Shown here piece by piece: positions 7,601 through 44,084 of a stretch of DNA of 50,062 bases. This DNA comes from Candidatus Pacearchaeota archaeon (GTDB taxonomy: Archaea; Nanobdellota; Nanobdellia; Pacearchaeales; GW2011-AR1), in assembly GCA_017609755.1 (NCBI GenBank), contig JAFCDI010000002.1, forward strand, positions 1-50,062, read 5' to 3'. A program made the position numbers and the translations under genes. The notes beneath the pieces are model-generated. The model saw only the letters and a program-made list of their open reading frames with translations, made no database searches and had not been told where the DNA came from. The first letter of the stretch is position 1; each line of letters begins with the position of its first letter.

Positions 7601-10600
7601 AGGAACCACTATTCCTTCTTTAGCATTTGGAAGACAAAGAGCAATACTTCCAAAAATTCCTGATTGAATAACATTTTGAACATAGTAATTTCCTCCAAAA
7701 TTACATCTACTTGGAGGGCAAATAACAGGGTCACACACATTAAACAAAATATTACAATCTTTTGGAGACATAAAATCTTGACATTTCATTCCAGGCAAAT
7801 CAACAGCAGGATTTCCTACTTTAATGTTATTTCTATTAATTGTTACTGATTTTATTTCTGACCTATATGCTCTTTGAGCCTCTTGAATTGCATAACTAGC
7901 TTTTCTTAATAAAGAAGTTACTTCACTAGGATTATCAATTCCAGGAAAAGAATTTGATTTATCTTGCTGAATATTTACAAAAGAACGACAAATATCATCT
8001 CCTCCAATATTTTCTTCTTTTCCATTTCTTCCTACATTACACAAATAATAAGTTTCTACTCTTCCTGATTCACTATAAGCAGCAATTCCTCCAATTTGCT
8101 GAACAGCAGCATACCATCCCTTTTGCAAATCAAAAGGAACAATTGCAGGATATCCTTTATATGGAGCAGTTTCATAATATCTAATCTCTGGATTTGAATA
8201 TGAATTTTTATAAGAGTTTTCACTGTAGCTAACAAAAGAGCCAATTCTTTTTGTTATATTTTCTAAAAGCTCTGAATTCTCTATAAGCATACCTTGAGAA
8301 GAATAAATATTCTCTATAACATAATTTTCTCCATCTACATTTCTTAATCCTAAAATATAATCTTGTGAATTATAAATTACTCCTTGAATAGGAGTTCCCT
8401 TTTCAATATTTCCAAAATTAGCAGTAGTCTCTCCTCCTCTATAAATCTCTGTTTTTGAATCTTTATCTGTAACAAGACTAAATGCAACATTAAATAATGC
8501 AGAATTTTGATTTAAAGAGTCAGTTGCAGAAAATTGAAGTGCTTGATTTCTTGAATTAACCTGAACATCTAACAAAGTCGAGTACAAATTATCTTCTGCC
8601 ATTTTTTTAACTTCTTCAGAAGCATCACTTATAAGAATTCTAGAATACAAATCAATATCTCTTAATTGTTCTACACTATATTTTCCCTTTCTAAATGCTG
8701 AATCAGAAGAAATAATTGTTTTTATATCTTCAAGATTTATGTCTTCTCCTTTTGCCCTTGGATCTGATAAAGTTCCATCCAAATTAAAAACACTTTCTAA
8801 ATTAATTATATTTGCTTTCACTGTTTCAGAATAATCATTTGCAAATTTTTCAGTATTCACATAATCTGTAGAAAGAAGCTCTCCTCCTTCAGTATATTTT
8901 GCTTCTATTCTCTTTATTTCAGTTTGCTGATTTTCCATTATTCCATATAAATCATTAACATCTTTATCAATTTTATCTGAATTCTCAATTAAACACTCTT
9001 CTTGACTAGAATAAGGTCCTCCTTGAGCAACTAATTCATTACATTTATCATACCATCCCTGGTCTCCATTCATAACTAAATCTCTTGCAATTCCTTTTCC
9101 ACCAACATTTTCAATATAATTTTTAATATTCAAATAAGCACTTGTCACTAAACAAGCAGTTTTCATTGTTTTTACAATTTTTCCAAGAGCATCTGAAATT
9201 CCAGCCCATTGCTCAATTTTCTTATCTAATTCTTTTATTTTTTCTTGAGTTACTTCTGGAGATAATTTAATATCTCTTTTATCAATATTTACTCTAAAAT
9301 TAAAAGAAGCATTTGAACTAGAATAATCAATATTTGGAATTACTGAAACCTTAGCAACTTGTTTTAATTTTACTTCTGTAAGAGTTAGAGTATATCCTGA
9401 ATTAAAAGACTCAGGAGAATTTAGAGAAATTTCTTCACTTCTATCTCTTAAAATATCTCCAAATTCTGTGTTTGATTTAATATTTAATTTAAGTTTTGCA
9501 GAATTCTCTTTTAAATCCTCTAACATAATATACTCATTTTCAGCAGAATTTAAATAAATAAGATCATTCTTTGTAAGAGTGTATATCTTTGAACTTTTTC
9601 CAGTTTCAGAAGGATAATCTACTCTAATTTTTGCACTATACTCTTCTTCAGAGGGATTAGTAACATCTTCAAAAGATATTGAATAAATTCTTCCATCAAT
9701 TAAAACTTCTGTAATAGAAGAAGTTGAACTAGAAACTTTTAATTTATTATTACAACTCTCTAAGGACTTCCTAGAGCCTGGATATCTTTCTTCAAATTCT
9801 TCACACAACTCTCTTAAAGTTCTTTTTTGATTTAACTCATTTGATAATTCAATTAATTCATACAAAGATTGTTCTCCAAGAGTATTTTCTGCATATCTAT
9901 TCTCCTCATTAGAATAACTATTAATTAATTCTCTATAATCTTCAACTGCTAAGTCAAATTTTTCTTGAATTTCTTCTGATAAGAGCATATCTCCTGATTC
10001 TGAAAATCCAAGGACATCTATTTCTAAATTCCCAAAAACTTCTTTAGAATATCCATATCTAATTCCTCTAAAACTCTCTCCATCACTTAACCACTCCCAA
10101 AATTTAGAAGAAGCTCCTAAAGAAAATTCTCCAACTTCTTTAAGGAAATTCCAGACATTTCCATCTCTTTGAAAATCTGTTTGCCCATAAATCTCTTGTG
10201 CTATTTTTTTTGCATTTTCCATTTCATCAAGAGTTAGTTTATCACTTGGATGCTTTCTCTCAGGAATAGCAATTAAATAAACATATAAATCATCTTCATC
10301 ATTTGTTTCTCCAACAGTATTTGCATAAGCCAAGAATATTTTTTTAGTTCCTTTTTTATTTTTTACTCCTAAATACTCTCCTATTTGAACATTTTTCTCT
10401 TCACCATTCACACTTAAAGAAATATTTGGAGTTATTCTTAAATTAATATCTCCTGTATGAAATCCATCTCTATCTTCTTTACAAACAAATTCAACCTCTG
10501 AATTAATTCCTTGCTCTTCTAATCTTTTTATTCTACAATTTCCATCTAAAAATTTCTCTCCATCTAAAAGTTCAATTGGATTTCCATTTATTCTTAATCT

Positions 10601-11467
10601 TGCTGTGGTATCTGGATTTTGAAGACTATCTAATTTTAATTGCATTGTAGCCAAGCAAAAATCAAATCCAGGAATATAGAGTTTTCTTGAAGTTTCTCCC
10701 TCTTTTAAATCAACACTAGAATACAATAATTTATCATCTCCTTGCCCTAAAAACCCGCTTCTATATCTATCAGAATAAATAGATATTTTTGCTGAATTAT
10801 CATAAGCTCCTTCTGCCCTTAAATAGCCTCTGCCATCCCAAAAACTATACTGCTTATATCTTGAATTCCAATCTTCTTCATTTAAAACAGGAAGATAAAA
10901 TTGAGACTGTCCAACTCCAAAAGCATTTCTAATATCATAACGAATTTTAGCAGTAAGATTTCCTTGAACATAATTAGGCATTGCAGATTCATTTGGTTGT
11001 CTTCTTAAAACAATAACAGCATAGCCAATATTCTGTAAAAAAACTGGTTGATTTAATTGATTTTGATAAGGATTTAAAGCTGCTTCAGCAGGATGAAATC
11101 CAACAGTCGCAACTTCTTTTGGATATTTTCCAGTAATAGTTATCATATTAATTGCATCTACATCTATTAAAGGATTAATTTGAGTTGCAGAAATTGGACA
11201 ATAAACATAAACATTTTGTTCTTCTAACAAATCACTTCTAACAACTGCAGGTTCACAACCTAAAGGAGATATTTGAAAAATAAAATCTTGTCCTGTCTGA
11301 CACATTCTATCATCAAACATTTTATTTAAATTAAAAGAATCAACTCTATCATAAGGCCCATATTGAACATAATTAGTTTGATAATAAGCAGATACAAAAG
11401 AACTAAATAAAAGAATTCCTAATATTAAAAATCCTATTCTTCCTAAAATTTTATTATTTATTTTCAT
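4652..11467 (-). CDS. Giant secreted/surface protein (2271 aa) with C-terminal leucine-rich repeats
   Basis: N-terminal signal sequence (IGFLILGILLFSSFVSA), Cys-rich regions, C-terminal LRRs (LTNLVKLTELEDLRLVNNGL..LENLKVLYLTGNDL..FKNLEFLDLDDNNF). Confidence 0.9.
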   Translation of the reverse strand: MKINNKILGRIGFLILGILLFSSFVSAYYQTNYVQYGPYDRVDSFNLNKMFDDRMCQTGQDFIFQISPLGCEPAVVRSDLLEEQNVYVYCPISATQINPLIDVDAINMITITGKYPKEVATVGFHPAEAALNPYQNQLNQPVFLQNIGYAVIVLRRQPNESAMPNYVQGNLTAKIRYDIRNAFGVGQSQFYLPVLNEEDWNSRYKQYSFWDGRGYLRAEGAYDNSAKISIYSDRYRSGFLGQGDDKLLYSSVDLKEGETSRKLYIPGFDFCLATMQLKLDSLQNPDTTARLRINGNPIELLDGEKFLDGNCRIKRLEEQGINSEVEFVCKEDRDGFHTGDINLRITPNISLSVNGEEKNVQIGEYLGVKNKKGTKKIFLAYANTVGETNDEDDLYVYLIAIPERKHPSDKLTLDEMENAKKIAQEIYGQTDFQRDGNVWNFLKEVGEFSLGASSKFWEWLSDGESFRGIRYGYSKEVFGNLEIDVLGFSESGDMLLSEEIQEKFDLAVEDYRELINSYSNEENRYAENTLGEQSLYELIELSNELNQKRTLRELCEEFEERYPGSRKSLESCNNKLKVSSSTSSITEVLIDGRIYSISFEDVTNPSEEEYSAKIRVDYPSETGKSSKIYTLTKNDLIYLNSAENEYIMLEDLKENSAKLKLNIKSNTEFGDILRDRSEEISLNSPESFNSGYTLTLTEVKLKQVAKVSVIPNIDYSSSNASFNFRVNIDKRDIKLSPEVTQEKIKELDKKIEQWAGISDALGKIVKTMKTACLVTSAYLNIKNYIENVGGKGIARDLVMNGDQGWYDKCNELVAQGGPYSSQEECLIENSDKIDKDVNDLYGIMENQQTEIKRIEAKYTEGGELLSTDYVNTEKFANDYSETVKANIINLESVFNLDGTLSDPRAKGEDINLEDIKTIISSDSAFRKGKYSVEQLRDIDLYSRILISDASEEVKKMAEDNLYSTLLDVQVNSRNQALQFSATDSLNQNSALFNVAFSLVTDKDSKTEIYRGGETTANFGNIEKGTPIQGVIYNSQDYILGLRNVDGENYVIENIYSSQGMLIENSELLENITKRIGSFVSYSENSYKNSYSNPEIRYYETAPYKGYPAIVPFDLQKGWYAAVQQIGGIAAYSESGRVETYYLCNVGRNGKEENIGGDDICRSFVNIQQDKSNSFPGIDNPSEVTSLLRKASYAIQEAQRAYRSEIKSVTINRNNIKVGNPAVDLPGMKCQDFMSPKDCNILFNVCDPVICPPSRCNFGGNYYVQNVIQSGIFGSIALCLPNAKEGIVVPVCLSGISAGVEGLLSVFQSYRDCLQESLDTGQTVGICDEIQSIYFCEFFYNQAIPIAKLTIPRLTELIVGKGARGGGEYLGVTDAWQRAQSSVEYFAQYYAANSYKAFKQRTIEGVGQEIICDGFLSLRYPNGGGVLDALTTPDSPVQFYAKFDEIPYTSVTNPPQSMYKVYYHIYAGKDTGAYYKIYFRGSPTSSFYQDTGYSIDVATGYAPKGEYVSNTKEFVAPAGYRELCVRVNNQEECGFSPITTNFAANYVRDYYVASQVNNTEITTEKQCISGTSSLSSLVNLNLQAGVENALNPEIYNSGIIRICATENPGIGTDANAESENSRWVEVGYCGNSNLKCWLDTLSVENSIDFQNIEDDVLQTVNKNYQDILTSDGYASKEFIEGEIKEIEDETSASEKISLVNSVIEQVFYNDQKATLIYLRAGAYGELAKILFGEYIQNLKKECDLGDEKCEGSKIMRCSNEFKWYMLTDCATTNRLCTIGESGNPICVTSEEAELSENEKLLLILEEQKQELGWNSWEDVRADYSSEFNSAERNIVTNADSCSDCGTGLFNTCNKEECVAIGFRLRDVLGKNKMCVHTGLTGCEEVILEGVTEPAQLSISQINVLEKAAELEGRIVEDNINCFESANSVYEFSEVELSNCIYSDTIGRNYNSVGQIIDGNIFKVANYPEKCIVNNGQENLLQEIKLDNLGKGYLISYMYGQEKAPHNAIFIQWIDKNSRRAQLFDWNGPKLYSGEKDSAGNICTSENFKPDEIYCKTFRYYTEYLTDDRHPVYMYWKPELMSSSSNPLNLNENKLINYCGYEVYNYEYEDYSSFLLGNNIVISDINCNNIHITDNHFTQIHIIDKPISDLTNLVKLTELEDLRLVNNGLSDASQLSNLENLKVLYLTGNDLSSLPDLTSFKNLEFLDLDDNNFNKLTDITSNLPWSSFLNIPLKLNSLSIQRNCISETKEIFEKALSFRAKRYFYLGNPRSDC

Positions 11468-13290
11468 ATAAAAAATATCCCCAAATCTTTAGTTTCAAAT
11501 AATAAATGATTTTTTTGCAATTGTTCAAGAGAACTTGGTCTTGGAAGACTCTCTGCAGTTATTGCAATTGTTTCTGAGTTTCTAAGTTCTTCTTCTGTAA
11601 TATAATAATTTACTTCTCCTCCTCCTGCTAATGCATTAGAAATAATTTGAGGTGGAATACTAACTTCAAAACATTTCTCTTGAGTAAATCCAAGCATTCC
11701 TCCAATTCCAGGACTTGGAATCTCCACACATTGTTCATAATTTTGTTCTGATAAACTCAATGAGGAGTTTTGATAAATATAAACACTCACATTATAGTCT
11801 CCTTCGCTTAATTCAACACTTCTTGTATCTGGATAAATTATTGTTTTGGATAAATCCTCTGAAACAAAATTAATTATTGCTTCTCCATTATAATTAGAAC
11901 CATCTAATCTTAAATTAACTTTTTTGTCATAAAGTCTATTTAAAATAAGATAAATTTCTCCTCCATCTACTACAGAAAGAATTGTTTTATAATCTGAATA
12001 TCCTTCTGCTCTAGCAAGAACATAACCATTTACACATTGAGGAAATTCTGTTTCTAAAACTCCTTCAGGAGAAGTTTTTCCTAAATCACAGGTATTTCCA
12101 AAACATTCATAAGAAATATCTGCTGAAACTGGAACTAGATTAGAATCATAAGTGTGTACTCTTACTAAAGTGCTTGCATCTTCACAAAAACTAGAATCTT
12201 CAGGAGCAACTGCCTCTCCTGAAAGAGGTTCTCTTGGATTATTTCCTCTTATAATAACTGCAACTGGAAATTGAAAAATTTCATCATTCTCATAAACCTG
12301 AATTAGTACAGGATACTTTACATCATAAACATAATGATAATTAACATAGCAAAATCCTAAAATTCCTAATCCTGATTGAGTTCCAACAGGTTTTGAAATA
12401 AGAAACATTCCTTCAGAAGGATTTACCTCAAAATTAGATGGCCAATTTGAAGATGTTAAAAATCTCACATTCTCATTAATTGGTAAATCAACTACAAAAT
12501 AATCATCAGATGCTCCTTTTGATTTTAAAGACAAAATATTAATCTCAATTGCTTCGGATAATTCTTCAAAAACCTCCTGAGCATTCCAAATCAAAGGAGA
12601 ACAACTAATTTCAACACCATCAACCGGCGCATACAATCTCAAAACATCAATAGTATATTCCTCTAAAAATAGTTCTTTTTGTTCTTCTTTATAAACTTTT
12701 ATTGCAGAATCATATAACTTTCCTAAATTAGAATTCGCAGACAAAAAATGCTCTCTTACTCTAACACTATTCTCTCCCCTATTAATTGTTAAATCCATAT
12801 TCAAAGTTACATCAATGTCTTTATCATTTATTATAACATCAGCATTAGGCTCTCCCAATAAAACTTCATATCCTGAATCATAATAACTTTCAAAAGAACA
12901 AGATAAAATTCTATTTTCTATAAAATTTCCTAATTCATTTTCCATTTCTTTTTTAGATGGAATCTGTTGTTTCTCAAGATTATTTCCAGAAACATAATAC
13001 CAATAAGGAATTGGATTTCCTAAAAAATTAAGTTGAGATGAAAAAGGCATATATGGAGAACCTGGTTCAAATTCGGGCATTTCAATATATCCTCCAGAAT
13101 TCATTAAAATATCTGCTCCTGTTAAAGTATCTTCTTCTAAACAAGATAAAAAACTTGTATAAAGAGGTTTCATAGAACTTGGAACTTTTGTAATTGAAGA
13201 AGGCTCTCTAAATATTAAAAAAAGTGCAACTCCTGCAACAATTAATATTACTAAAATAATAAAAATCGTGACTTGTCCTTTATTTTGCAT
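11464..13290 (-). CDS. Surface protein with pilin-like N-terminus (608 aa)
   Basis: MQNKGQVTIFIILVILIVAGVALFLIF resembles a class III/type IV pilin signal; overlaps the downstream giant gene by 4 bp. Confidence 0.8.
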   Translation of the reverse strand: MQNKGQVTIFIILVILIVAGVALFLIFREPSSITKVPSSMKPLYTSFLSCLEEDTLTGADILMNSGGYIEMPEFEPGSPYMPFSSQLNFLGNPIPYWYYVSGNNLEKQQIPSKKEMENELGNFIENRILSCSFESYYDSGYEVLLGEPNADVIINDKDIDVTLNMDLTINRGENSVRVREHFLSANSNLGKLYDSAIKVYKEEQKELFLEEYTIDVLRLYAPVDGVEISCSPLIWNAQEVFEELSEAIEINILSLKSKGASDDYFVVDLPINENVRFLTSSNWPSNFEVNPSEGMFLISKPVGTQSGLGILGFCYVNYHYVYDVKYPVLIQVYENDEIFQFPVAVIIRGNNPREPLSGEAVAPEDSSFCEDASTLVRVHTYDSNLVPVSADISYECFGNTCDLGKTSPEGVLETEFPQCVNGYVLARAEGYSDYKTILSVVDGGEIYLILNRLYDKKVNLRLDGSNYNGEAIINFVSEDLSKTIIYPDTRSVELSEGDYNVSVYIYQNSSLSLSEQNYEQCVEIPSPGIGGMLGFTQEKCFEVSIPPQIISNALAGGGEVNYYITEEELRNSETIAITAESLPRPSSLEQLQKNHLLFETKDLGIFFI

Positions 13291-31866: not shown

Positions 31867-32712
31867 TCACATAAAATTTATTTTATTCCAAATATTAGAT
31901 TTCCAAAAATAAAACAATAAAATAAAACTAATTAAAAAAACAGGAGTAAAAGGAATTCCCTTTCTAATTAAAACTTCGTCTTTTTTCTTCTTAATTAAGC
32001 TAATCTCATTCTTATTTAATCCTTCCCAGCTTGCTTTTATTGTTTTATTTCCTATTTTCACATTCTTATACAACCAATCTCCTTCTGTTAATTTATCTGC
32101 CTTAATTTTAACCACCATACAACTCTCATCAACTGCTTTTACATAAATATACAAATAAGGAAAAATAAAAATAAGAATTCCTAATAAAAAGAATAAATTA
32201 GAAAAAAAACCAAAAATAACAAAAATTATTGCAATAAAAATTCCTAAAAAAACAAATTTCTTATTTTTTCTAAACTGATTTATAAATTCTTTTTTAAATT
32301 TTCTAGAATGTTTTATGCTCAAATAAACTGTAAAAAGAATACTATAAAGCACTCCTACAAGCAAAAACAAAACAAAGAACAATAAAAATATTCTTAAATT
32401 AGTTTCAAAAATATTTGAGAAAGAAAGAACTGTTCCAAGAGCAACCATTAATTTAGCATCTCCTCCTGCAAACATCTTTCCATAATAAAGCACATTTCCT
32501 AAAATAAAAAATATTCCAAAACCAATTAAACCTTGATAAAAGAAACTAAATCCCTTCTCTAAAAACAAAGAGTAAAAAAATCTAAATCCTAAAGCAAAAA
32601 TGATTAATGAAAAATTCAACCAATTCGCGACTTCTCTTTTTTTAATATCTTGAATAGTTGCAAAAACAATCCAGATTAATGCCAATGCAAATAAAAAAAT
32701 TTCACCAAACAT
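31867..32712 (-). CDS. Type IV prepilin/preflagellin peptidase (A24 family)
   Basis: ATIQDIKKREVANWL and FAGGDAKLMVALG (GxGD-type) plus multiple TM segments. Confidence 0.88.
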   Translation of the reverse strand: MFGEIFLFALALIWIVFATIQDIKKREVANWLNFSLIIFALGFRFFYSLFLEKGFSFFYQGLIGFGIFFILGNVLYYGKMFAGGDAKLMVALGTVLSFSNIFETNLRIFLLFFVLFLLVGVLYSILFTVYLSIKHSRKFKKEFINQFRKNKKFVFLGIFIAIIFVIFGFFSNLFFLLGILIFIFPYLYIYVKAVDESCMVVKIKADKLTEGDWLYKNVKIGNKTIKASWEGLNKNEISLIKKKKDEVLIRKGIPFTPVFLISFILLFYFWKSNIWNKINFM

Positions 32713-32741
32713 AAATTAAGATGGAAAAGAGAATTTATAAA

Positions 32742-32864
32742 TTATTTCTTAGAAATTTTTGTGCTTCTATATTTTCCTCCTTTTTTATAAGGATGTTTTT
32801 TCTTTTCTTTTTTCTTATTCTTTCTTTTATTTCTTTTTTCAGAAGAAGCATAATCTAAGTTCAT
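32742..32864 (-). CDS. Small, very basic peptide (40 aa)
   Basis: Manual ORF MNLDYASSEKRNKRKNKKKEKKKHPYKKGGKYRSTKISKK*. Confidence 0.45.
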   Translation of the reverse strand: MNLDYASSEKRNKRKNKKKEKKKHPYKKGGKYRSTKISKK

Positions 32865-32865
32865 T

Positions 32866-33321
32866 TTATACAGAAGAACATTCAAAAGTTACAAGAGTGT
32901 CTTCAATTAAAGATTGTACAAAAACAGTTTCTGTTCCACTAACAGGACAAAAATTAGGAAGATTTTCTTCAACAGCTGCATTTACAAGAAGCACATTATC
33001 ACAAGAAATTGAAGGACAACTTCCTACTCCATAAACTGATTTCTCTTTTGCAAGATAATTGCAAGTAACTTCTTTTAATTTTACATCGTCTGCTTTTAAA
33101 TCTCTTCCAGACATACAATAATCATAAACAGAATTAGTTGAACATGCTGCTTCACAAACAGCAACAATAGTATCTACATTATTATTAGAAATCCAGGGAA
33201 CTATTTTATTCCAGCCCATAGTAAATCCTAAAATTAAAACAACTAAGACAACTATTCCTAAAATAATAAGAATAATTGCATTTGTACTCATTCCCTGACC
33301 TCTTTTGTTATTCATAATCAT
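32866..33321 (-). CDS. Pilin-like protein (151 aa)
   Basis: NNKRGQGMSTNAIILIILGIVVLVVLILGF class III signal-like N-terminus; Cys-rich C-terminal domain. Confidence 0.75.
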   Translation of the reverse strand: MIMNNKRGQGMSTNAIILIILGIVVLVVLILGFTMGWNKIVPWISNNNVDTIVAVCEAACSTNSVYDYCMSGRDLKADDVKLKEVTCNYLAKEKSVYGVGSCPSISCDNVLLVNAAVEENLPNFCPVSGTETVFVQSLIEDTLVTFECSSV

Positions 33322-33403
33322 TTTTGAACAATAGGAAATTTTTACTTTCCTTGCGACTATATTTAATTTAAGTTTATTTTATTTATAAAGTTTTGTTTTT
33401 ATT

Positions 33404-33718
33404 TCAGGGATTATAAACTACTGAAAAAATAATTTTCCGTTTAAAAAATCCATTTTTAAAATTAAAGGTTCTTATTGACTGAGTTTTTCTAAGGCCTTCT
33501 ACAGCAAGTTCATTATAAGAATTATATTCTATCTGAGCATTTAATTCTTCAAGTAGAGCAACTCCAGAAAAATTATTTGACATCTTTAAATTAGCAAAAT
33601 AAAAACTAAGTAAAGCTAAACTGCAAACAGCTAAAATTCCCAAAACCAACAAAATTATTGGCAAATTTCCTCTTTTGTTACTAGCTAACTTCATTATTTT
33701 TCTCCTTCCAATTTTCAA
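33404..33718 (-). CDS. Pilin-like protein (104 aa)
   Basis: NKRGNLPIILLVLGILAVCSLALLSF. Confidence 0.72.
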   Translation of the reverse strand: MKIGRRKIMKLASNKRGNLPIILLVLGILAVCSLALLSFYFANLKMSNNFSGVALLEELNAQIEYNSYNELAVEGLRKTQSIRTFNFKNGFFKRKIIFSVVYNP

Positions 33719-33968
33719 TTATTTGTTTATCTTCATTTGAAGCGGATTCATAAGCAATTAAATTTTTTATTTCTAATAAATCAGTTCCTTTTCCAGAATC
33801 TAATTTTAAATTTTTTATTTGAACAATTTTTGTTTTTTGTGCTAAAATTGTAGAAGCATAAAGAAATATAATCAAAATTGAAATTATAATCAATGTGGCA
33901 ACTATCCAAGTCATAATTTCTGAAATTTGTGCTCTTTTATTTAACATTTTTTTCTGTTTTTCTAACAA
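33681..33968 (-). CDS. Pilin-like protein (95 aa)
   Basis: NKRAQISEIMTWIVATLIIISILIIFL. Confidence 0.72.
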   Translation of the reverse strand: MLEKQKKMLNKRAQISEIMTWIVATLIIISILIIFLYASTILAQKTKIVQIKNLKLDSGKGTDLLEIKNLIAYESASNEDKQIIENWKEKNNEVS

Positions 33969-34494
33969 TTGTTAAAATTTTAATTAAATAAAGTTCTTCA
34001 TTAAATTTGTCCAAAGAAAAAAATTCTTTCTCAAGACAGACTGCTTCTCTCTGATACTCTTTTTCCTTTTGAATTTCACAACTAGAAATTAAATTTAAAT
34101 TTCCTTCAGAAAAATTAAACAAAGATTTCTCTAAATTATTTGAATTAAAAAAATGAATCTCTAAATAATATTGAGGAATTCCTCCAAAAATATCTTCAGA
34201 ATTTAAATTCAAATGACATTCTTCTAGAAAATTGTTTTTAAAAGATTCATTAAATCCTTCTGAATCTAATATTGCTTTATTTATTTCACCTTGATTTGAT
34301 AAACAATTCGCTATTGAATTAGACAAAGCTTCTGCTTCTAATTCTCTAACATCATATGGATGTGAATAAAACAAATAAACCATTCCAAAAATTCCTCCTG
34401 CAACAAGTAAAATCATTGCAAACCAATAAACTGAAATTATCTTACTTCCTGCTTTTTTATACATTTTAATCATATTCAAGTATTTTAATAACAT
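33937..34494 (-). CDS. Pilin-like/pseudopilin protein (185 aa)
   Basis: KKAGSKIISVYWFAMILLVAGGIFGMVYLF; overlaps its neighbours. Confidence 0.7.
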   Translation of the reverse strand: MLLKYLNMIKMYKKAGSKIISVYWFAMILLVAGGIFGMVYLFYSHPYDVRELEAEALSNSIANCLSNQGEINKAILDSEGFNESFKNNFLEECHLNLNSEDIFGGIPQYYLEIHFFNSNNLEKSLFNFSEGNLNLISSCEIQKEKEYQREAVCLEKEFFSLDKFNEELYLIKILTIVRKTEKNVK

Positions 34495-34879
34495 ATGAAT
34501 TTATTTCTGAATCAGGATATAAATTTATATTAATTTTATTAAAATAAGAGTAAGAGTGTCCGCTATTTTCATCTAATTTTACAGTTATTAAATTATCTCT
34601 AGAAAATATTATTTCTTCAAATTCTAATCCATTTTTTTCTGCAATTTCTCTTGCTTTTTCCATATTTAAAACAATTGTCATTCCTGGTTTTGCTGAATCA
34701 ATTAAAAGAGATATTTGTTTTGAATAAGTCTCCTCTAATAAACTAGCTCCTTGTCCTGATTTTGATATAAAAAGAACTAAAATCATCAAAAACATAACAT
34801 TTAAAATAATAAAAACAACATTCTCCATTAATACTTTTCCATGATTATTCCTCTTTTTAAACATAATATAAATTATCAA
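34466..34879 (-). CDS. Pilin-like protein (137 aa)
   Basis: KKRNNHGKVLMENVVFIILNVMFLMILVLF. Confidence 0.7.
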   Translation of the reverse strand: MIIYIMFKKRNNHGKVLMENVVFIILNVMFLMILVLFISKSGQGASLLEETYSKQISLLIDSAKPGMTIVLNMEKAREIAEKNGLEFEEIIFSRDNLITVKLDENSGHSYSYFNKININLYPDSEINSYVIKILEYD

Positions 34880-34902
34880 ATAATCTTAATAAAACTAACG
34901 AA

Positions 34903-35844
34903 TTAAGAAAGAGTCACAATATCTTTACAGTTTAACAGCCTAAATGCTTCTGGACTTGCTTCAATAATTGTAGGAGCCATAAATTCATTGTCAATTCCCT
35001 CTCCTTCAACAATTAATGCTACTATTTTTGGATTGTATAATTTTTCTGCTAAATCATCTCCTACCACTCCTGTAACTACTCCAGAAACTAAGATTATTGC
35101 TCCTCCTACTGCTGTAAAAGGAAGAGTTAATATTCCTACTACTACTGCAACTCCTCCAATCCACTTGTATTTATTTCCAATTTGACTAGTAATTCCCATC
35201 ATAACAAAATAATTTTCATCAAGATGTATTTTTCCAAAAGTTGAAATTCCTTCTTCATTTCCTTCACTAACAGAAATTTCTGATACTAGAGAAGCAATAT
35301 TTTTTGTTCCAAAAAAATACTCTGCATAAGTTTGCTTTCCTTCAGAAAGAGAGGTCTCTGATAAATAATTATAAAATTCGTCTTTGTTTATTTCACCACT
35401 CTCAAAACCCTCAATTTTTCTTATGCTATTATCAAATGCTATTTGAGAGCAAATAGAACAATAATTTGCTTCCTTTGTCTTATCTCCTATATAATCAATT
35501 TTTCCTTCTCCAAACATCCACCAACAATCAGCCATTTCTTCTGCCAAAATTCTATAAACTTCTTCTTTACTAGAAGCCTTTTCAATATTTGGATTTGTCA
35601 TAGATTCGCAGCTTCCATCTTTACTCAAACATACATAAGTTCTTTTACAATTTAGAGGAACTGTTTTTTCAGATAAAAGTACATTTCCTCTAAGAATCAC
35701 AGAATTATGGCAAATTTCTTTTTCACTTTCTGCTCCAAGATTTAATCTAAACAAAAAATACAAAATAACAATAAAACTAATAACTAATACAATTAAAATA
35801 ACTATTTGCTGAGTTGTTAACTCTCCTCTTTTATTAATTTTCAT
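34903..35844 (-). CDS. Pilin-like N-terminus with Cys-rich extracellular domain and second hydrophobic segment
   Basis: MKINKRGELTTQQIVILIVLVISFIVILYFLF; CWWMFGEGKIDYI...YCSIC; start set at 35844 because it makes an ATGA overlap with the upstream ORF. Confidence 0.75.
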   Translation of the reverse strand: MKINKRGELTTQQIVILIVLVISFIVILYFLFRLNLGAESEKEICHNSVILRGNVLLSEKTVPLNCKRTYVCLSKDGSCESMTNPNIEKASSKEEVYRILAEEMADCWWMFGEGKIDYIGDKTKEANYCSICSQIAFDNSIRKIEGFESGEINKDEFYNYLSETSLSEGKQTYAEYFFGTKNIASLVSEISVSEGNEEGISTFGKIHLDENYFVMMGITSQIGNKYKWIGGVAVVVGILTLPFTAVGGAIILVSGVVTGVVGDDLAEKLYNPKIVALIVEGEGIDNEFMAPTIIEASPEAFRLLNCKDIVTLS

Positions 35845-35945
35845 CCTAAAATCCCCATTTTTCTTAAGGCAACATAAAGAGCTGTTGCTATAACTATAAA
35901 AAAGAAAATCCAAATTATATATTTTAGTAATTCTTCTAAATTCAT
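35841..35945 (-). CDS. Single-TM micropeptide (34 aa)
   Basis: Manual ORF MNLEELLKYIIWIFFFIVIATALYVALRKMGILG*; ATGA overlap with next gene. Confidence 0.6.
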   Translation of the reverse strand: MNLEELLKYIIWIFFFIVIATALYVALRKMGILG

Positions 35946-36415
35946 ATTCTAGTTATTTGAATTTTTCCTCCTATTTTTCTTATATTTATTTCAACAATTT
36001 CTTCATGATATTTCTCTATTTTAATATCCTCAAATTCTAATAAATTTGAAATAATCAAACAAGAACCTTCTTTTGAACATTTTTTTATTTGCCTATCAAA
36101 AATATCTCCAAAAACTTTGTTGCAAATACATATGCAATTCTCTCCTGAACAAGAATTTGGTTTTTTCTCTTCTCCAGTAAAACTAAATAAAGTCCATCCC
36201 TGAGGCTGAAGAGCAGTTATATTTCCTCCTAAAGAATCTAAATTTGAAATCATTTCAGAAATTTTATCAATTGTTTCTGCTGCTTCTCTCTCTTTTTTCT
36301 GTTTTGATTCTGAAGAAAGAATATTAACTAAAAAATAAGCTAACAAAGCCAAACCAATTACTGCTATAATCATTTTTAGAGTTTCTTCAGTTAATAACAT
36401 TCCTTTATTTTTCAT
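35942..36415 (-). CDS. Pilin-like protein (157 aa)
   Basis: NKGMLLTEETLKMIIAVIGLALLAYFLV; CSGENCICIC motif. Confidence 0.72.
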   Translation of the reverse strand: MKNKGMLLTEETLKMIIAVIGLALLAYFLVNILSSESKQKKEREAAETIDKISEMISNLDSLGGNITALQPQGWTLFSFTGEEKKPNSCSGENCICICNKVFGDIFDRQIKKCSKEGSCLIISNLLEFEDIKIEKYHEEIVEINIRKIGGKIQITRI

Positions 36416-36582
36416 ATCAAAGACAAAATAAATTTAAAACTAGAATTTCCAGTTCCTCCCACATTAGAGATAAAAACTGCAACATGATTTTTAAATACAT
36501 AATAAACTCCCCAAACAACTGCCACAATAACTAAAATTCCAATTATTAATTTTATAAGCTGATTTATAGTTAATTCTGCCAT
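36412..36582 (-). CDS. Small single-TM protein (56 aa)
   Basis: Manual ORF MAELTINQLIKLIIGILVIVAVVWGVYYVFKNHVAVFISNVGGTGNSSFKFILSLI*; ATGA overlap with next gene. Confidence 0.65.
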   Translation of the reverse strand: MAELTINQLIKLIIGILVIVAVVWGVYYVFKNHVAVFISNVGGTGNSSFKFILSLI

Positions 36583-36583
36583 T

Positions 36584-36742
36584 TTAAGTTCCTCTAAATA
36601 AATTTTTAAGAGAATCTATTAGAGAGATTCCTTTTTGCTTTAATAAAAATATAGTAATAATTAAAATTGCTAAAACTGCAAGAGCAATTAAAAGCCAGGG
36701 CAAATATTCTGTAACAATTCCTCTTTTATTCCTCTTTTTCAT
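36584..36742 (-). CDS. Small pilin-like protein (52 aa)
   Basis: Manual ORF MKKRNKRGIVTEYLPWLLIALAVLAILIITIFLLKQKGISLIDSLKNLFRGT*. Confidence 0.68.
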   Translation of the reverse strand: MKKRNKRGIVTEYLPWLLIALAVLAILIITIFLLKQKGISLIDSLKNLFRGT

Positions 36743-36776
36743 AATATATCCTATAAAAGAATATTAATAAATCTAA

Positions 36777-38969
36777 CTATACTCCTAAATTTCCAAGCAC
36801 AACTGTTGTTAATATAAACAATATTAAAGTTGCTATTAAAGCAACTAAAAAATAAAGAGTAATTCCTTTTTTCAAATTTTTTCCGGTCTTGTTTGTTTTT
36901 TCTAATCTATCTTCTCCAGAATCTATCATAACCAAAGTGCCTGTTAAAATAAAAATTATCTGAATTATATAAATTCCTACAATAATTTGTAAATAATAAG
37001 GAGGTATCATGCTTCCTAAATTAAAGATTTCTAAAATTCCATCAATATTTGAAATTCCTAATGCTGAAGCATCTCCAATGCTTGCTGCTATTTCTAGTTT
37101 ATTTAAAATAGATGCAATCATTGTTGCTAAACCCACAACAATTCCAGAAAGCAAAGGAGCTAAAAAAGTCATATTACTTCTCATATCAGAAACAATCTCT
37201 GCTAACATGTCTTTAAGTCTCATTGTTATTTTTTGAATATTTTTAATGTATTGAGAAATATTCATTAAACTCATTGCAGCAGCTTTTAATCCTTTTTTAG
37301 CAGATTCAATTAAAACTCTCATACTTGTTGCAATTAAATCAGAAGGATAGTAATTTAATGTTCCTCTATTTGGATCAAAAATAGCTCTTTCAACACTCAT
37401 TCCCATTTGTCTTATATTATAATTAACTCTTCTAAAAAAATCTCCAGTCATTAATCCTCTTGAAGATTCTGCAACTTTTCCAAAAGCCAATTCAGGAGGA
37501 ACTCCATTACCAATTCTATTTCCTAATTGAAAAAGAGAATTATTAAATTCAGCTTCAAGTTGTTTTGTCTTTTTTCTTTCTTTAATTAACTCTTTTGTTC
37601 TTTCTTTTGCAGCTATTGAAAAAAAGAGGGCAATTCCAATTGGAATAAACAAACTAAAAAATACAGCTCCAATTCCAAAAGGCCCAACTCCATTTTCTTT
37701 AAAGTCAAATAATTTTCCATCTCCTAAAAAATTCAATCCTAATTCTGTAAAACTATAATCTGCTTGAATTCCAAACATATCTGCAACTCCTGGAATTTGA
37801 AGAATAAGAGGAGCAAAACCAATTATAAAAAGTGGAAGACAAATAAAAAAAGCTCTTACATAAGCATCCTTACTTTTATATTTTGGATACAAAGGATTTC
37901 TCTCTAAAAAAATAGTTTCTCCATAGCCTCCTGGTCTCAACATTAGAACTTTGTCTGTAAGATAATAAACCATAAAAGGAACAATTAAATTAAACAAAAT
38001 AAAAACATGAACTGTTTTTAAAATTCCTCCAAGCATTGCAGATGCAAGAGGAAGTAATGCCAAAGCAAGAGTAGGAAGAACAACTCCCAACATATAAACA
38101 TTTGTTAAAGGACTTCTAACACTATGAGTAAATTTCAACATTTTATCATAAACTCCATCAAGAACAACTTGAAGAGATTTTTCTAAAACAGCTATTCTTC
38201 TTGTGTTATTTGGTTCAAACAAACTTCCTTCAATTAAATGAAATGCTTCAATAAACTCTACAGAATAATCTTTCCAACTTTCTAAATAATTATCTAAACT
38301 TTCTTTAATTGTTGAGAATTTTCCAATCTCTACATCATAAAATACTTTTTTAAAATCCAAAGATAAAGGAGGTTGAAGATGCTTAGATGCAAAGGAAATT
38401 GCTTTTTCTAAATTAGGAGTATGCCTCATATAAACCACAATATAAAGAATTGCAGGAACCATTTGAGAAGATGCTTTTAATCTCCATTTTTTTGCTAATC
38501 TTTCAGGATATGCATTAACAAAATAAAAAAGAAAAATAGAAACAAAAACAACTAAAACAAAAAACAAAACTGGAAAAAACTCAATACTTCCCTTAATTAA
38601 AGAAATTGCAACAGAAATAAGAAGTCCAACTAAAAAAACAGAAACAAAAGACATAACAGAAAGAGTTAGTGCTTGCCAAGGTAAAACATCTAAATGAGCT
38701 TCCTCTAAATGTTTTCTAATTTTATCCTTATCTTTTTCAGAAACATTTATTTTAATTAAATTTCCAAGACTTGCGCACCATTTTTCATAACGGCTTAATT
38801 CAGGAGCCATTTCTTTTTTAAAAGAAGTATACTCTTTGCTATAGTTTGTTTCTCCAACTAAAGTAGAATCCATTTGAGACTCTATTTTTGCACTATGTTT
38901 TCTAAGAATTTCTTCAACAGTTGGTTTTCTAGGCATTTTTTCCTCTCTTTTATATAAATTAAATAACAA
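36777..38969 (-). CDS. Type II/IV secretion membrane platform protein (TadC/FlaJ-like, two T2SF-like halves)
   Basis: 730 aa; two cytoplasmic/TM repeats (ASKHLQPPLSLDFKKV..., ELAFGKVAESSRGLMTGDFFRRV...); directly follows the ATPase. Confidence 0.85.
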   Translation of the reverse strand: MLFNLYKREEKMPRKPTVEEILRKHSAKIESQMDSTLVGETNYSKEYTSFKKEMAPELSRYEKWCASLGNLIKINVSEKDKDKIRKHLEEAHLDVLPWQALTLSVMSFVSVFLVGLLISVAISLIKGSIEFFPVLFFVLVVFVSIFLFYFVNAYPERLAKKWRLKASSQMVPAILYIVVYMRHTPNLEKAISFASKHLQPPLSLDFKKVFYDVEIGKFSTIKESLDNYLESWKDYSVEFIEAFHLIEGSLFEPNNTRRIAVLEKSLQVVLDGVYDKMLKFTHSVRSPLTNVYMLGVVLPTLALALLPLASAMLGGILKTVHVFILFNLIVPFMVYYLTDKVLMLRPGGYGETIFLERNPLYPKYKSKDAYVRAFFICLPLFIIGFAPLILQIPGVADMFGIQADYSFTELGLNFLGDGKLFDFKENGVGPFGIGAVFFSLFIPIGIALFFSIAAKERTKELIKERKKTKQLEAEFNNSLFQLGNRIGNGVPPELAFGKVAESSRGLMTGDFFRRVNYNIRQMGMSVERAIFDPNRGTLNYYPSDLIATSMRVLIESAKKGLKAAAMSLMNISQYIKNIQKITMRLKDMLAEIVSDMRSNMTFLAPLLSGIVVGLATMIASILNKLEIAASIGDASALGISNIDGILEIFNLGSMIPPYYLQIIVGIYIIQIIFILTGTLVMIDSGEDRLEKTNKTGKNLKKGITLYFLVALIATLILFILTTVVLGNLGV

Positions 38970-38990
38970 AAATCAATTAATAAATCTTGC

Positions 38991-41279
38991 TTAAGATTTT
39001 CTTTTTTTAATTTCACTAGTTAACCATTTTTGCCAAAGAGGAAAAACTTTATCAGATAAAGGAAGTCCAAATTCTTCTCTAACTTCCTCTGAAATCTTGT
39101 GAAACATATGATTTGCAAGAGTTGTAAAATTCGCTTCAAGAATATCAAAATTCTTTTCTTTTTCTGCTAAATCTACTAATTCCTGCTTTATTTTTGCCCT
39201 TAAAAGAATATTATCATAAACAGCATCCCAATTTCCAGCCCAGCCTTTTACATTTGCTGCAATATTTTTCAGAACTTCACTATCTCCATTTTTAAGATCT
39301 TCTGTAGGTTCTAATTCATCAGTTTCAACATTATATTTCATTAAATCCACAAATCCTTTTTCTCTAAGAGGATCTTCTTTCCAATGTTTTCTTATTTCTG
39401 AAATCTGTAAAACTCTTCTCCAAGAGTGAAGTCCATCTGGAGATTTAATAGGATTACAAACAACAATAATATCTGTTGCTTTAAAACTAGTAGCAGGAAC
39501 TCCTAAATCATTTACAACTCTATCAAAAACAGCATAAGGAGAAGCTCCATGAATTGTTCCTGCAACAACATTTGCCAAAGCACCAATTCTCATTGCTTCA
39601 TAAAGAGCTTTTGCTTCAACACTTCTAACCTCTCCAATAATTAAACAACTATCTCCTAATCTTAAACTAGTTCTTATTCCATCATCAGCAGAAACTTCAG
39701 TTGTTGTTTTTAATAAAGCAGATCTTACTTTCATTCTTAAAATATCATATTTGAGTTTTCTTAGAGAATCAATAGGCAATTCTAAAGAATCTTCAATTGT
39801 AATAATTCTAAATTTTGGAATAATTTCTAACATTAAACTTCCAAGTAAAGATGTTTTACCTGAACTTCGAGTTCCTGCAACCAAAAGAGTTCGAGAACCA
39901 TCAATTAAAAAACTAAGTAAGCCTGCTGCAAATGAATTAATCATTTTATTTTTTATAAAAAGAGGAAGAGTCCAAGGATCTTCTCTATGTCTTCTAATTG
40001 AATAAGCCAAACCATTGGGAGAAAGAGGTTCTTGAATAATTGCTATTCTTGCTTTAATTTTTCCTAAGTCTAATTGAGTGTCTAAAATAGGGTTTGATTC
40101 GTCTAAAGGCCTTCCAGATAACATTCTAAATTTTGCTGCCCAAGAATCAGCATCTTCTTGACTTGGTAAGATATTTGTAGAACATTCATCATATTTTTGA
40201 TGCCTTACAAAAATTTGAGTCTTAGGTATTGGAGCATTTAAAGAAAGATCCTGCAAATTTCTATCTTGCAACAAAACCTCAATCAATCCAAATCCAATAG
40301 TATGTCTAACTAAAATAGTTGATAATTTGTTTAAATCTTCATAATCTAATCGTATATTTTTATTTTGAGCCAAATCTCTTAATAAATCTTTAGAAATATT
40401 AAAAAAAACCTGACGAGTTCTTTCAGTGTCTGTAAATTCTTCTGCTTCTGGTTGATGTTCTATTAAAACTCCTCTAGCTAAATTTAAAAGCATATTATAA
40501 TCTTCTGATAAAGAATTTTCAGGAGGAACTATATGATAAATTAATTTCGGCTCATCTTTTTTCTTTAAAATAGTAACTTGAGATTCATCATAATTTCCAT
40601 TAGAAATAGAATATTGGTCAATAATTTCTGCATTTTCAGGAATATCTGAAATCAAACGAGTAAAAGTAAAATTAGGAATTATATCTGGTTTGAAAAGGTG
40701 ATGATAAATTTCTCTTTCTCCTTTAGAATAATCTTCTAAATAAGGCTCTGCTGCTTTTATTAATTGAACTTCTTTTAAAAGTTTTAAAATCTCTTCTAAC
40801 AGCCTAATATAATTTGTCTGATCATTTCTATATGCTGGATTTAGTTTGTCTAAAAGAATCTTAGCATTTAAAATTAATTTTTTTATTTCAAAATATGCTG
40901 CTAAAGGGTCTCTTTTTAAAAATAACAAAAAAGAAAAAACTTCATTATATCTTTGAGAAAAAAATTCTGGATTTGTTGAAATTAATTTTTCCTGAGATAA
41001 AATTTTCTCTTGTTTTATCAAATAAACATAAAGCTGAGCTAATTCAAGTAAATAAGATGTTTCTTTAAAGTCATAATTATAATTTTTTTGTTGAACAAAA
41101 ATAATTCTTGAAACTTGAGGATTTTCTATTAGAGCATCAATTGTTCTTTCCATTACTTCTGGATAATCTGCTAAACTAGGAACATATGGTGCTCCAAGAT
41201 AATTTATATAGAGTAAATCTTCTCCTCCTTTTCTAATTATTTCAGAAGAATATAGTTCTTTTTCTTTTTTTTCTAACAT
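38991..41279 (-). CDS. Type II/IV secretion ATPase (TadA/VirB11/FlaI-like)
   Basis: Walker A LLVAGTRSSGKTSLLGSLM, ITIEDSLELP, SCLIIGEVRSVEAKALYEAMRIGALANVVAGTIHG. Confidence 0.93.
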   Translation of the reverse strand: MLEKKEKELYSSEIIRKGGEDLLYINYLGAPYVPSLADYPEVMERTIDALIENPQVSRIIFVQQKNYNYDFKETSYLLELAQLYVYLIKQEKILSQEKLISTNPEFFSQRYNEVFSFLLFLKRDPLAAYFEIKKLILNAKILLDKLNPAYRNDQTNYIRLLEEILKLLKEVQLIKAAEPYLEDYSKGEREIYHHLFKPDIIPNFTFTRLISDIPENAEIIDQYSISNGNYDESQVTILKKKDEPKLIYHIVPPENSLSEDYNMLLNLARGVLIEHQPEAEEFTDTERTRQVFFNISKDLLRDLAQNKNIRLDYEDLNKLSTILVRHTIGFGLIEVLLQDRNLQDLSLNAPIPKTQIFVRHQKYDECSTNILPSQEDADSWAAKFRMLSGRPLDESNPILDTQLDLGKIKARIAIIQEPLSPNGLAYSIRRHREDPWTLPLFIKNKMINSFAAGLLSFLIDGSRTLLVAGTRSSGKTSLLGSLMLEIIPKFRIITIEDSLELPIDSLRKLKYDILRMKVRSALLKTTTEVSADDGIRTSLRLGDSCLIIGEVRSVEAKALYEAMRIGALANVVAGTIHGASPYAVFDRVVNDLGVPATSFKATDIIVVCNPIKSPDGLHSWRRVLQISEIRKHWKEDPLREKGFVDLMKYNVETDELEPTEDLKNGDSEVLKNIAANVKGWAGNWDAVYDNILLRAKIKQELVDLAEKEKNFDILEANFTTLANHMFHKISEEVREEFGLPLSDKVFPLWQKWLTSEIKKRKS

Positions 41280-41411: not shown

Positions 41412-41738
41412 ATGAGTGATAGGAATTCAGATTATCTTGGGCAAGAATTAGGAATTCTTCATACAAAAATTAGAGATTTAGAAGAAAAACAAAGAATTCT
41501 TAAAGATAGACTTTTGCTTATTGGGCAAAATTTAATTGAAACAAAAGAAAAAAACAGAGAAGATATTTTAGAAATAAAAAAAGATATAGAGATTATGAAA
41601 CATAGTTTAGAAAGATTCTCCTCTTTTTTAGAAACAGCATCTTCTGAATTTTCAAGATTTGCAAGAAAAGAGGATTTAGACATTTTAGTAAAACAAGCAA
41701 AAATGTTTCAACCTTTAGAAAAATTAAAAAAGAGGTAA
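41412..41738 (+). CDS. Coiled-coil protein (108 aa)
   Basis: Heptad-rich LHTKIRDLEEKQRILKDRLLLIGQNLIETKEKNREDILEIKKDIEIMK. Confidence 0.65.
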   Translation: MSDRNSDYLGQELGILHTKIRDLEEKQRILKDRLLLIGQNLIETKEKNREDILEIKKDIEIMKHSLERFSSFLETASSEFSRFARKEDLDILVKQAKMFQPLEKLKKR

Positions 41739-41752
41739 AACAATACTCTAAT

Positions 41753-42649
41753 ATGGGAACTCTCGATAAGATAACACAAATGAAAAACCAAGGGTTTTCT
41801 GAAGGAGATATAATCAATAATTTAAAAGAACAAGGAGTTTCTCCAAAAGCAATAAATGAAGCAATGGACCAATCAAAAATAAAACAAGCAATTTCAGATT
41901 CAGGACAAGAAGCAACTTCTGGAAATACAATTCCTGCAGGAAGAAGTGCAAGAGCTCAAGAACAAGGACAAAATGTTCCAAATGATGAATTTTACATTCC
42001 TCAAGGAAGAGCTCCTCTTCCAAAAGGCCCTCCAACTCAAGAATATTCTAAAAATCAAGATCAAATATACTCTCAAAATTATAATGCAGATACTTTTTCG
42101 CAAACTTATGATGCAGAATACAATCAAAACTACAACCAGAATTATGGTTCTCAGCCTTATGGAGCCTATGAACAACCAGAAAATTATGGTTCTGATTATG
42201 GAAGTTATGAAGAGCCATATGGAGGATATGCTCCTCAAAATTATAATGAAGAATATTATCCTCAAGAAGGATATGAATCTGGTTCTAATTATGGAGGATA
42301 TGATGAAGGAACAGATATAATGATTGAAATAGCAGAACAAGTTTTTGCTGAAAAAATGAAAAAAATAGAAAAGCAAATTGAAGAATTAAACGAGTTTAAA
42401 ACTCTTGCAGAAACAAAATTAAACAATGCAACAGATAGATTAAAAAGAATTGAAGAAACAATAGACAAATTACAATCAGCTATATTAGAAAAAGTAGGAT
42501 TTTATGGTAGAGGAGTAGAAAATCTAAAAAAAGAAATGGAAATGATGCAAGAATCTTTTAGCAAAACTCTTCCTAACTTAGTTTCTAAATCTTCTGCATC
42601 TCATCTTCATAAAAAACCTACAAGAACTAATTCTAAAAAAAATAATTAA
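41753..42649 (+). CDS. UBA-like N-terminus, Y/G/N/Q-rich low-complexity region, coiled coil (298 aa)
   Basis: MGTLDKITQMKNQGFSEGDIINNLKEQGVSPKAINEAM; YNQNYNQNYGSQPYGAYEQPENYGSDYGSYEEPYGGYAPQNYNEEYY; C-terminal coiled coil. Confidence 0.8.
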   Translation: MGTLDKITQMKNQGFSEGDIINNLKEQGVSPKAINEAMDQSKIKQAISDSGQEATSGNTIPAGRSARAQEQGQNVPNDEFYIPQGRAPLPKGPPTQEYSKNQDQIYSQNYNADTFSQTYDAEYNQNYNQNYGSQPYGAYEQPENYGSDYGSYEEPYGGYAPQNYNEEYYPQEGYESGSNYGGYDEGTDIMIEIAEQVFAEKMKKIEKQIEELNEFKTLAETKLNNATDRLKRIEETIDKLQSAILEKVGFYGRGVENLKKEMEMMQESFSKTLPNLVSKSSASHLHKKPTRTNSKKNN

Positions 42650-42667
42650 TAAAATTCTAATAAAAAA

Positions 42668-43261
42668 TTATCTTCCCCCTCTCAAAGCTTGAGCTAGAAT
42701 ATTGTTTGCTTTTTCAGTGCTTGTTTTAGCTGGTTTTGATGCAGCAATAATTGCAACTATTAATCCTATAAAAACTCCAATACCTACAATTGTTGGCCAA
42801 TTATAAGTCCACCAAGTTCCAAAAGTAAATCCTAAATTTCTAGACGCACTTAATAATACTCCTAAAACAACTACAACAGAAACTACCATTAATCCAACCA
42901 TCCAACCTTTATTATCTGGATCAATAAACAATCCAGTAATAATTAGTATAACTAAAATAACTGATAAACCAACTCCAAGAGCAGGAAATAACTGAGTAAA
43001 GAACATTCTAACAAAAGGAAATTGCAAAGCCATTAATGAAACAGCTAAAGAAATTATCGCACTAATTGCCATATTTGGATTTCCATCTGATTTTTTGAAA
43101 ATATTCATTCTAGAAAGAATTCCAAAAACCAATGCAAAAATTAAAAGAAAGGGCAGAGCATAACTAAATATTCCAACTTGTTCCCACATATTTAAAATGT
43201 TTCCAATTGCGCCTCCATCAAAATAACCATAACTGGCTAAAAACAATAATCCTTCAACCAT
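42668..43261 (-). CDS. Polytopic membrane protein (197 aa)
   Basis: Multiple TM segments; FLLIFALVFGIL...AISAIISLAVSLMALQFPFV; resembles the next gene. Confidence 0.75.
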   Translation of the reverse strand: MVEGLLFLASYGYFDGGAIGNILNMWEQVGIFSYALPFLLIFALVFGILSRMNIFKKSDGNPNMAISAIISLAVSLMALQFPFVRMFFTQLFPALGVGLSVILVILIITGLFIDPDNKGWMVGLMVVSVVVVLGVLLSASRNLGFTFGTWWTYNWPTIVGIGVFIGLIVAIIAASKPAKTSTEKANNILAQALRGGR

Positions 43262-43306
43262 AATAGAAATTATGAAAATAGATTTAAATATGTTTCGAAA
43301 GAATTA

Positions 43307-43798
43307 TTATTTAGAACTTTTGATTACTAAAGCCAATGCAACTGCAATAACAACTATAAATAGAAAATTTGTCCAAAAAGCATTGCTCCAATTGCTTCCA
43401 AAAATAAACTCAAAAGCATTTCCTCCAACTCCTGTTGCCCAAAAAACAGCAATAATAACTGCGATTCCTATAACCACCATTAAAAAAGTTTTAAATCCTT
43501 TACTCATATCCAGTCCTTTTTCTCCTGAAGAAACAAAACCCCACAACAATAAAACAACAAAAACAATTACTAAAGAAACTGTTAAAAATAAAATCATATT
43601 TCCTACTACAATTTTAGGAAAAACAGCTCCAACAAAAATTAATCCAATAACAAATGCTATTAATGCATTTAACTGTCTTTTTTCATCTCCAAAAACTTTT
43701 GTTTTCTCAAGTACAGCAAAAACTATGAAAAATATCAACAAAAAAGGATATACAAATTGTGTTAAAATCTCACTCTGTAAGATTGTTTCTGTCGCCAT
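43307..43798 (-). CDS. Polytopic membrane protein (163 aa), likely related to the neighbour
   Basis: FLLIFFIVFAVLEKTKVFGDEKRQLNALIAFVIGLIFVGAVFP. Confidence 0.75.
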   Translation of the reverse strand: MATETILQSEILTQFVYPFLLIFFIVFAVLEKTKVFGDEKRQLNALIAFVIGLIFVGAVFPKIVVGNMILFLTVSLVIVFVVLLLWGFVSSGEKGLDMSKGFKTFLMVVIGIAVIIAVFWATGVGGNAFEFIFGSNWSNAFWTNFLFIVVIAVALALVIKSSK

Positions 43799-43805
43799 CT
43801 TTTTT

Positions 43806-44084
43806 TTATATTAAATCTTCAGGAATCTCTTCAATTCCTGTTTCTGGATTAGGCAGTGCTGCCTTATTAATTATAAAAATATCACTAATTGCTTTTACAA
43901 ATTGATGCGGAATAATAACACCTTTTGCTCCTCCAATAAGAGAAATTACTCCTCCACCTACTTTTATCCTCCATCCATCTATTTTATTCTCATATAAATT
44001 TACTTCTTCAATTTCTCCAAAATAGTCTCCAGAATCAGTATATACTTTTGAACCTAAAACTTCTGTTATCTTTTTAACTCTCAT
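43806..44084 (-). CDS. PRC-barrel domain protein
   Basis: MRVKKITEVLGSKVYTDSGDYFGEIEEVNLYENKIDGWRIKV. Confidence 0.82.
   Translation of the reverse strand: MRVKKITEVLGSKVYTDSGDYFGEIEEVNLYENKIDGWRIKVGGGVISLIGGAKGVIIPHQFVKAISDIFIINKAALPNPETGIEEIPEDLI

Follow-up and report, generated by a model that had tools for sequence, protein, structure and literature searches.

The minus-strand gene run at positions 31867-41279 of the window (the whole 50,062-nucleotide stretch of Candidatus Pacearchaeota DNA analysed here) is operon-like and encodes an ATPase, a membrane platform, ten pilin-like proteins of 34-313 aa, a 40-aa peptide, and a prepilin peptidase. We think it likely, with appreciable doubt remaining, that this is a Nanoarchaeota-specific type IV filament machine, which in many relatives presents wall-cutting domains to bacteria. 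The gene content and its conservation are observed, as are the fusions of pilins to murein hydrolases in related genomes. The filament is inferred, and there are no structure, expression, or binding data.

Components and conservation of the locus

The window corresponds to contig C7 in a genome of 545,648 bases that is ~83% complete, and a Pfam scan of the locus recognised the ATPase and the peptidase. Reading down from 41279 on the minus strand, the first gene encodes a secretion/assembly ATPase of the FlaI/TadA/CpaF type (38991-41279), 762 aa in length with a long N-terminal region. It matches PF00437 (T2SSE) at 1.1e-14 (54.3 bits versus a cut-off of 24.9) and, among PDB structures, archaeal GspE (2oap, 1.8e-28) as well as CpaF and FlaI, which bears out the TadA/FlaI-like ATPase of the initial annotation. 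The next gene (36777-38936, with a revised ATG at 38936) encodes a 719-aa TadC/FlaJ-type membrane platform. Its match to PF00482 is weak (0.078, under the cut-off); its place after the ATPase and its length fit the F/TadC type, and it was found in 107 related loci. The double T2SF platform that had been pointed out is not unusual in itself. Then come s52 (36584-36742), s56 (36412-36582), p157 (35942-36415), s34 (35841-35945), p336 (34903-35844), p137 (34466-34864), p185 (33937-34494), p95 (33681-33947), p104 (33404-33694), and pilA151 (32866-33321), a Cys-rich pilin that adjoins the peptidase and is sometimes duplicated. The run closes with p40 (32742-32864), a 40-aa basic peptide, and the prepilin peptidase (31867-32712; PF01478 7.7e-12, above the cut-off), which has the motif GGDAK. 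The 40-aa peptide lies where the initial annotation had put it, as do all ten pilin-like ORFs. Start codons were revised for p336 (35844, giving 313 aa), p137 (34864), p95 (33947), p104 (33694), and p40 (32864). Overlaps between genes had also been noticed, and they measure 4, 4, 4, 29, 11, and 14 nt; judged from gene arrangement alone, such overlaps and tight packing are as in a co-translated operon.

The ATPase was present in all 37 genomes of a nearest-relatives search (the window's own included), in 168 of the 180 genomes of the order, and in 266 of the 279 of the phylum. Where the match was complete, identity in the order and phylum genomes was ~50-85% over nearly the full length. For the pilins, profiles were built from the window genes and refined on relatives, and the counts given here are of de-duplicated related loci. 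All ten families were found in 55-80 loci, mostly in the same order. Among them, p336 was found in 77 loci, and the 52-, 56-, and 34-aa families in 80, 68, and 55, respectively. Since these three families are conserved across related loci, the tiny proteins are genuine genes, and chance ORFs can be ruled out as their source. Conservation extends to the basic peptide, which has a KKKHPYKKGG motif and strong tblastn matches in many related loci.

Beyond the ATPase, two divergent coiled-coil genes lie on the plus strand: cc108 (41412-41738; 102 loci), a possible accessory part, and cc298 (41753-42649; 114 loci), which has a Gln/Tyr-rich linker. Two polytopic membrane proteins follow on the minus strand, m197 (42668-43261; 75 loci) and m163 (43307-43798; 57 loci), which is related to m197 and cross-matches it. 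In most of the order, these genes and a PRC-barrel gene (window 41412-44084) are conserved next to the ATPase. In L139, L144, L151, L152, G021:C59, and G023:C51, an intein-like insert, in frame and several hundred residues long, interrupts the ATPase gene behind the IEDS motif (residue ~498). Some records titled as bacteria (L109, Patescibacteria; L126, bacterium; L141, Chloroflexi) bear the archaeal ATPase; mislabelling or mixed bins are the probable explanation. Elsewhere in the window, an Rfam tRNA of 115 nt (765-879) was missed by ARAGORN and probably contains an intron.

None of the window's ten pilins gave a confident match in the Pfam scan. A motif search found a K/R-(x)-G/A leader ahead of a hydrophobic helix in >90% of the members of eight of the ten families, in line with the prepilin N-termini that the initial annotation had described for at least six larger proteins. 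The s56 and s34 families are mostly leaderless (leader in 11 of 68 and 18 of 55). In the window, s56 is a leaderless pilin-like helix and s34 a leaderless helix; most members of both families begin at the would-be mature N-terminus, and homologs in other genomes retain the leader. Pilin status is putative throughout, resting on motif, helix, homology, and locus, without processing data. The AF2 model of p336, the large conserved prepilin, has a pLDDT of 84.5 and gave no match below E 1.6 against PDB structures.

Murein hydrolases on the pilins of relatives

In ~20 relative genomes, at least one pilin of this locus bears a murein hydrolase domain, on one or two subunits each. The domains are lytic transglycosylase (SLT), Amidase_2, M23 peptidase, glucosaminidase, and phage-tail lysozyme. 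This total includes loci picked for having SLT, and a less biased figure is 10 of the 68 ATPase-centred loci. The slot after s52 encodes 41-71 aa in most genomes, the window's included, and 114-684 aa in about a dozen. When 75 long locus proteins, nearly all pilin-like, were scanned with Pfam, only four families were found: Phage_lysozyme2 (E-value 1.2e-26), M23 (1e-17), glucosaminidase (3.4e-13), and SLT (1.4e-12). Ten further outliers gave Amidase_2 twice (3e-25 and 2.6e-23) and otherwise one sub-threshold DUF. All confident Pfam enzyme matches among the ~85 long pilin proteins were thus to murein hydrolases, which lends substance to the specialised machine suggested in the initial annotation. 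In a reverse search covering all SLT, M23, and Amidase_2 matches in 180 genomes, the pilin-like ones that we examined were placed in this locus by their profile matches.

Seven of the ten subunits are used in this way (s56, p157, p137, p185, p95, p104, and pilA151). The s56 slot carries SLT, M23, or lysozyme in other genomes, and the p157 slot carries SLT in families f2, f4, f7, and f8 and glucosaminidase in f6, which makes five families of the order. By profile, SLT was assigned to six slots: s56, p157, p137 (L236, L234), p185 (L238, L265), p104 (L239, L230, L297), and pilA151 (L276). Amidase_2 occurs on p185 (L236, L277), and a third amidase is on p95 (L323). Locus L236, in which all ten genes are present, has SLT on p137 and an amidase on p185. 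No hydrolase domain was seen on s34, p336, or s52 in the loci surveyed, and the 526-aa protein that was put in the s52 slot in L052 has probably been misassigned. Long domains without a recognised family occur in several s56- and p157-slot proteins. The survey of fusions did not cover Woesearchaeota loci in full; p157 homologs there lie in frames of 325-515 aa (G295, G290, G360, G248, and G339). Canonical type IV pilus loci, read for a handful of genomes, make a thin control for the link between pilins and hydrolases. Separate secreted hydrolases are common in these genomes, and thus pilin fusion is one of several display routes.

Two further observations concern hydrolases in this group. At L048:5757-8751, a 684-aa pilin combines a phage-tail lysozyme with a tail that is probably NlpC/P60-like. 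The 198-aa ORF after it repeats linker and lysozyme (DNA identity of 98% over 49 nt and 79% over 433 nt) and may be a spare cassette or a duplication remnant. A small Amidase_2 protein (~140 aa, no evident signal) recurs in the family (L317, L318, L320, L321, L322, and L326).

Judged from sequence alone, the fusions look functional, by their intact catalytic motifs and by the insertion of a domain within a pilin. The catalytic Glu-Ser of SLT does not vary across 17 fusions, and the M23 domain retains HxxxD and HxH. The amidase is inserted within p185, with the family's N-terminal 135 residues before it and the C-terminal strand (YIVKIL...) kept after it. In the AF2 model of this protein (pLDDT 72), the pilin parts were of high confidence and the amidase part was poor; Foldseek with this model gave nothing useful. 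The assignment as an amidase is based on Pfam together with phmmer matches to AmiD/AmpD, and the similarity to E. coli AmiD extends through the H...DPGP stretch. With p137-SLT as phmmer query, the PDB yielded nothing beyond a weak hit (1.4e-4), which falls in the pilin part.

In the SLT tree, the fusions of family f1 formed one group over five pilin genes (s56, p137, p185, p104, and pilA151), with identities of up to 59% between SLT domains from different slots, and the p157-SLT proteins formed two other groups. This grouping indicates that one enzyme lineage moved between subunits of one filament machine and that others were captured separately. Five or more separate captures over seven subunits may be counted in all. 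Since p157 bears an enzyme in f2, f4, f6, f7, and f8, the p157 enzyme may be ancestral in the order and may have been lost in f1, some members of which then came to have SLT on other subunits; the order of events is inferred.

No recognised hydrolase was found on the window's pilins or, as far as seen, on those of its genus. The window's p157, which has a P-x-GW/CxC head, aligns end to end with positions 1-158 of a p157-SLT profile of 363 positions (1.3e-19), and by this alignment it corresponds to the pilin half and lacks the enzyme. Contig C6 of the same genome encodes a separate secreted SLT protein. The window also encodes a 2271-aa secreted protein (4652-11467), which has a tail of leucine-rich repeats and is 43-47% identical over ~430 aa to giants with M23 or SLT. 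It adjoins a 608-aa pilin-like protein (window 4652-13290 for the pair), and relatives of both are found beside a canonical type IV pilus in L070.

Target of the enzymes and possible functions

In the genomes of the order, the penicillin-binding transpeptidase was found in 0 of 109 and a Mur ligase in 2 of 109. These archaea are thus very probably without murein, and with no sign of murein synthesis the target of the hydrolases is probably bacterial, which is inferred and not shown. Bacterial hosts have been proposed for some Pacearchaeota and Woesearchaeota on the basis of giant transglycosylase proteins (Castelle 2021, PMC8204110), and archaeal hydrolases that kill bacteria have been described (PMC12352652). 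We found no description of hydrolase-bearing archaeal pilins in the open-access literature; subscription papers and preprints were outside the search. Bacterial partners had already been proposed, and in the literature searched we found no report tying them to pili.

As a mechanism, the ATPase would drive the platform to build a short or thin pilus from peptidase-processed pilins. The shaft (major) subunit is probably s52, the best candidate because it is always tiny, lies next to the platform, and has the leader (KRG before IVTEY in the window) in 79 of 80 loci. The larger, variable pilins would be at the tip or serve as decoration, so an enzyme could ride on almost any of them; these positions are inferred. 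In many relatives, the growing pilus would press the subunit-borne murein hydrolase onto a bacterial wall, and opening the wall would serve attachment, feeding, or entry. The window machine, without a fused enzyme, might act in attachment only, or jointly with separately secreted hydrolases. We propose, tentatively and as something short of probable, that the phylum-wide pilus is a wall-breaching device whose pilins are interchangeable mounts for a roving murein hydrolase, with which tiny archaeal symbionts attach to bacteria, feed on them, or enter them. Only 10 of the 68 ATPase-centred loci bear hydrolases, and the enzymes could serve adhesion or scavenging and not breaching.

That low frequency also supports an ordinary adhesive type IV pilus used on any host cell, archaeal or bacterial, with the fusions as an occasional lineage-specific decoration and not the core job. 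The remaining 58 loci, the window's among them, lack a recognised hydrolase, and the machine is phylum-wide although cultivated DPANN archaea live on archaeal hosts (PMC11291902). We consider this reading unlikely but worth keeping; against it stand confident enzyme matches that are all to murein hydrolases, at least five separate captures on seven subunits, and SLT or glucosaminidase on p157 in five families. A type II secretion-like pseudopilus that exports soluble or giant proteins, such as the 2271-aa protein, would likewise combine a single ATPase and a single platform with numerous minor pilins whose heads are dissimilar, and giant secreted proteins and separate hydrolases do occur in the same genomes. 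It is improbable, because the giant protein itself carries an apparent Sec signal and there is no outer membrane to cross, while enzymes fused to subunits argue for display and not for export of a free substrate; moreover, the ATPase scores 17.9 bits with the curated GspE model, for which the cut-off is 630. Least credible is a competence-like pilus taking up DNA as a source of scavenged nucleotides. These genomes are reduced, and Pacearchaeota are thought to use scavenged nucleotides (PMC8204110), but the absence of the ComEC channel (PF03772) from all 109 genomes of the order argues against DNA uptake, and a cell can take up free DNA without hydrolases on its pilins.

For the preferred reading, a filament machine that presents wall-cutting domains to bacteria, the significance lies in the partners. 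Those of most Pacearchaeota and Woesearchaeota are unknown, and a hydrolase-bearing pilus is a concrete, testable link to bacterial partners with named genes. The locus also supplies candidate pilins for nanoarchaeal ATPases that lacked identified pilins in the 2016 census (Makarova, Koonin and Albers 2016, PMC4858521), although the clade of the window's ATPase was not placed. That census assigned nanoarchaeal ATPases to clades 2 and 4F, and the cognate pilins of 4F were not identified.

Comparison with known systems

The initial annotation had argued against an archaellum and would have been refuted by a standard archaellum or a described Tad operon, and the curated cut-offs for these were not reached. 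The archaellum has a related ATPase and peptidase. The window's ATPase, however, scores 136.3 bits against a curated FlaI cut-off of 550, the FlaK cut-off is also not reached, and, as had been noted, archaellin is missing (no PF01917 in the window's own ~83% complete genome). Tad/Flp pili share a CpaF/TadA-like ATPase, and s52 is Flp-like in size and in a Glu-Tyr near the cleavage site, but the curated TadA-family model gives 113.8 versus 373 bits and no Tad partner genes were seen. The bindosome (Bas) is likewise rejected (BasE model, 68.3 versus 1000 bits), and there was no PADLOC match to a defence system. A second ATPase in the window's genome, on contig C18, adjoins a TadC that is split and pilins of the ordinary archaeal kind; that locus is a canonical type IV pilus, separate from the window machine.

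The type IV pili of euryarchaeal clade 2 and subclade 4F (PMC4858521) are alike in having a VirB11/FlaI-type ATPase, a TadC platform, and several class III prepilins per locus. The window locus differs in its ten pilin families without a confident Pfam match, three of them of 34-56 aa, in its 762-aa ATPase, and in the murein hydrolases on relatives' pilins. Bacteria-killing archaeal peptidoglycan hydrolases (PMC12352652) are a parallel in that archaea, notably Nanoarchaeota, encode hydrolases acting on bacterial walls; pili are absent from that paper, and its enzymes are modular, mostly secreted, and equipped with wall-binding domains. The giant transglycosylase proteins (fam00969; Castelle 2021, PMC8204110) of Pacearchaeota and Woesearchaeota come from the same organisms, have the same type of enzyme, and led to the proposal of bacterial partners. 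However, those giants are extracellular proteins of up to 3,000 aa, whereas the enzymes at the relatives' loci are built into the pilins of an assembly machine.
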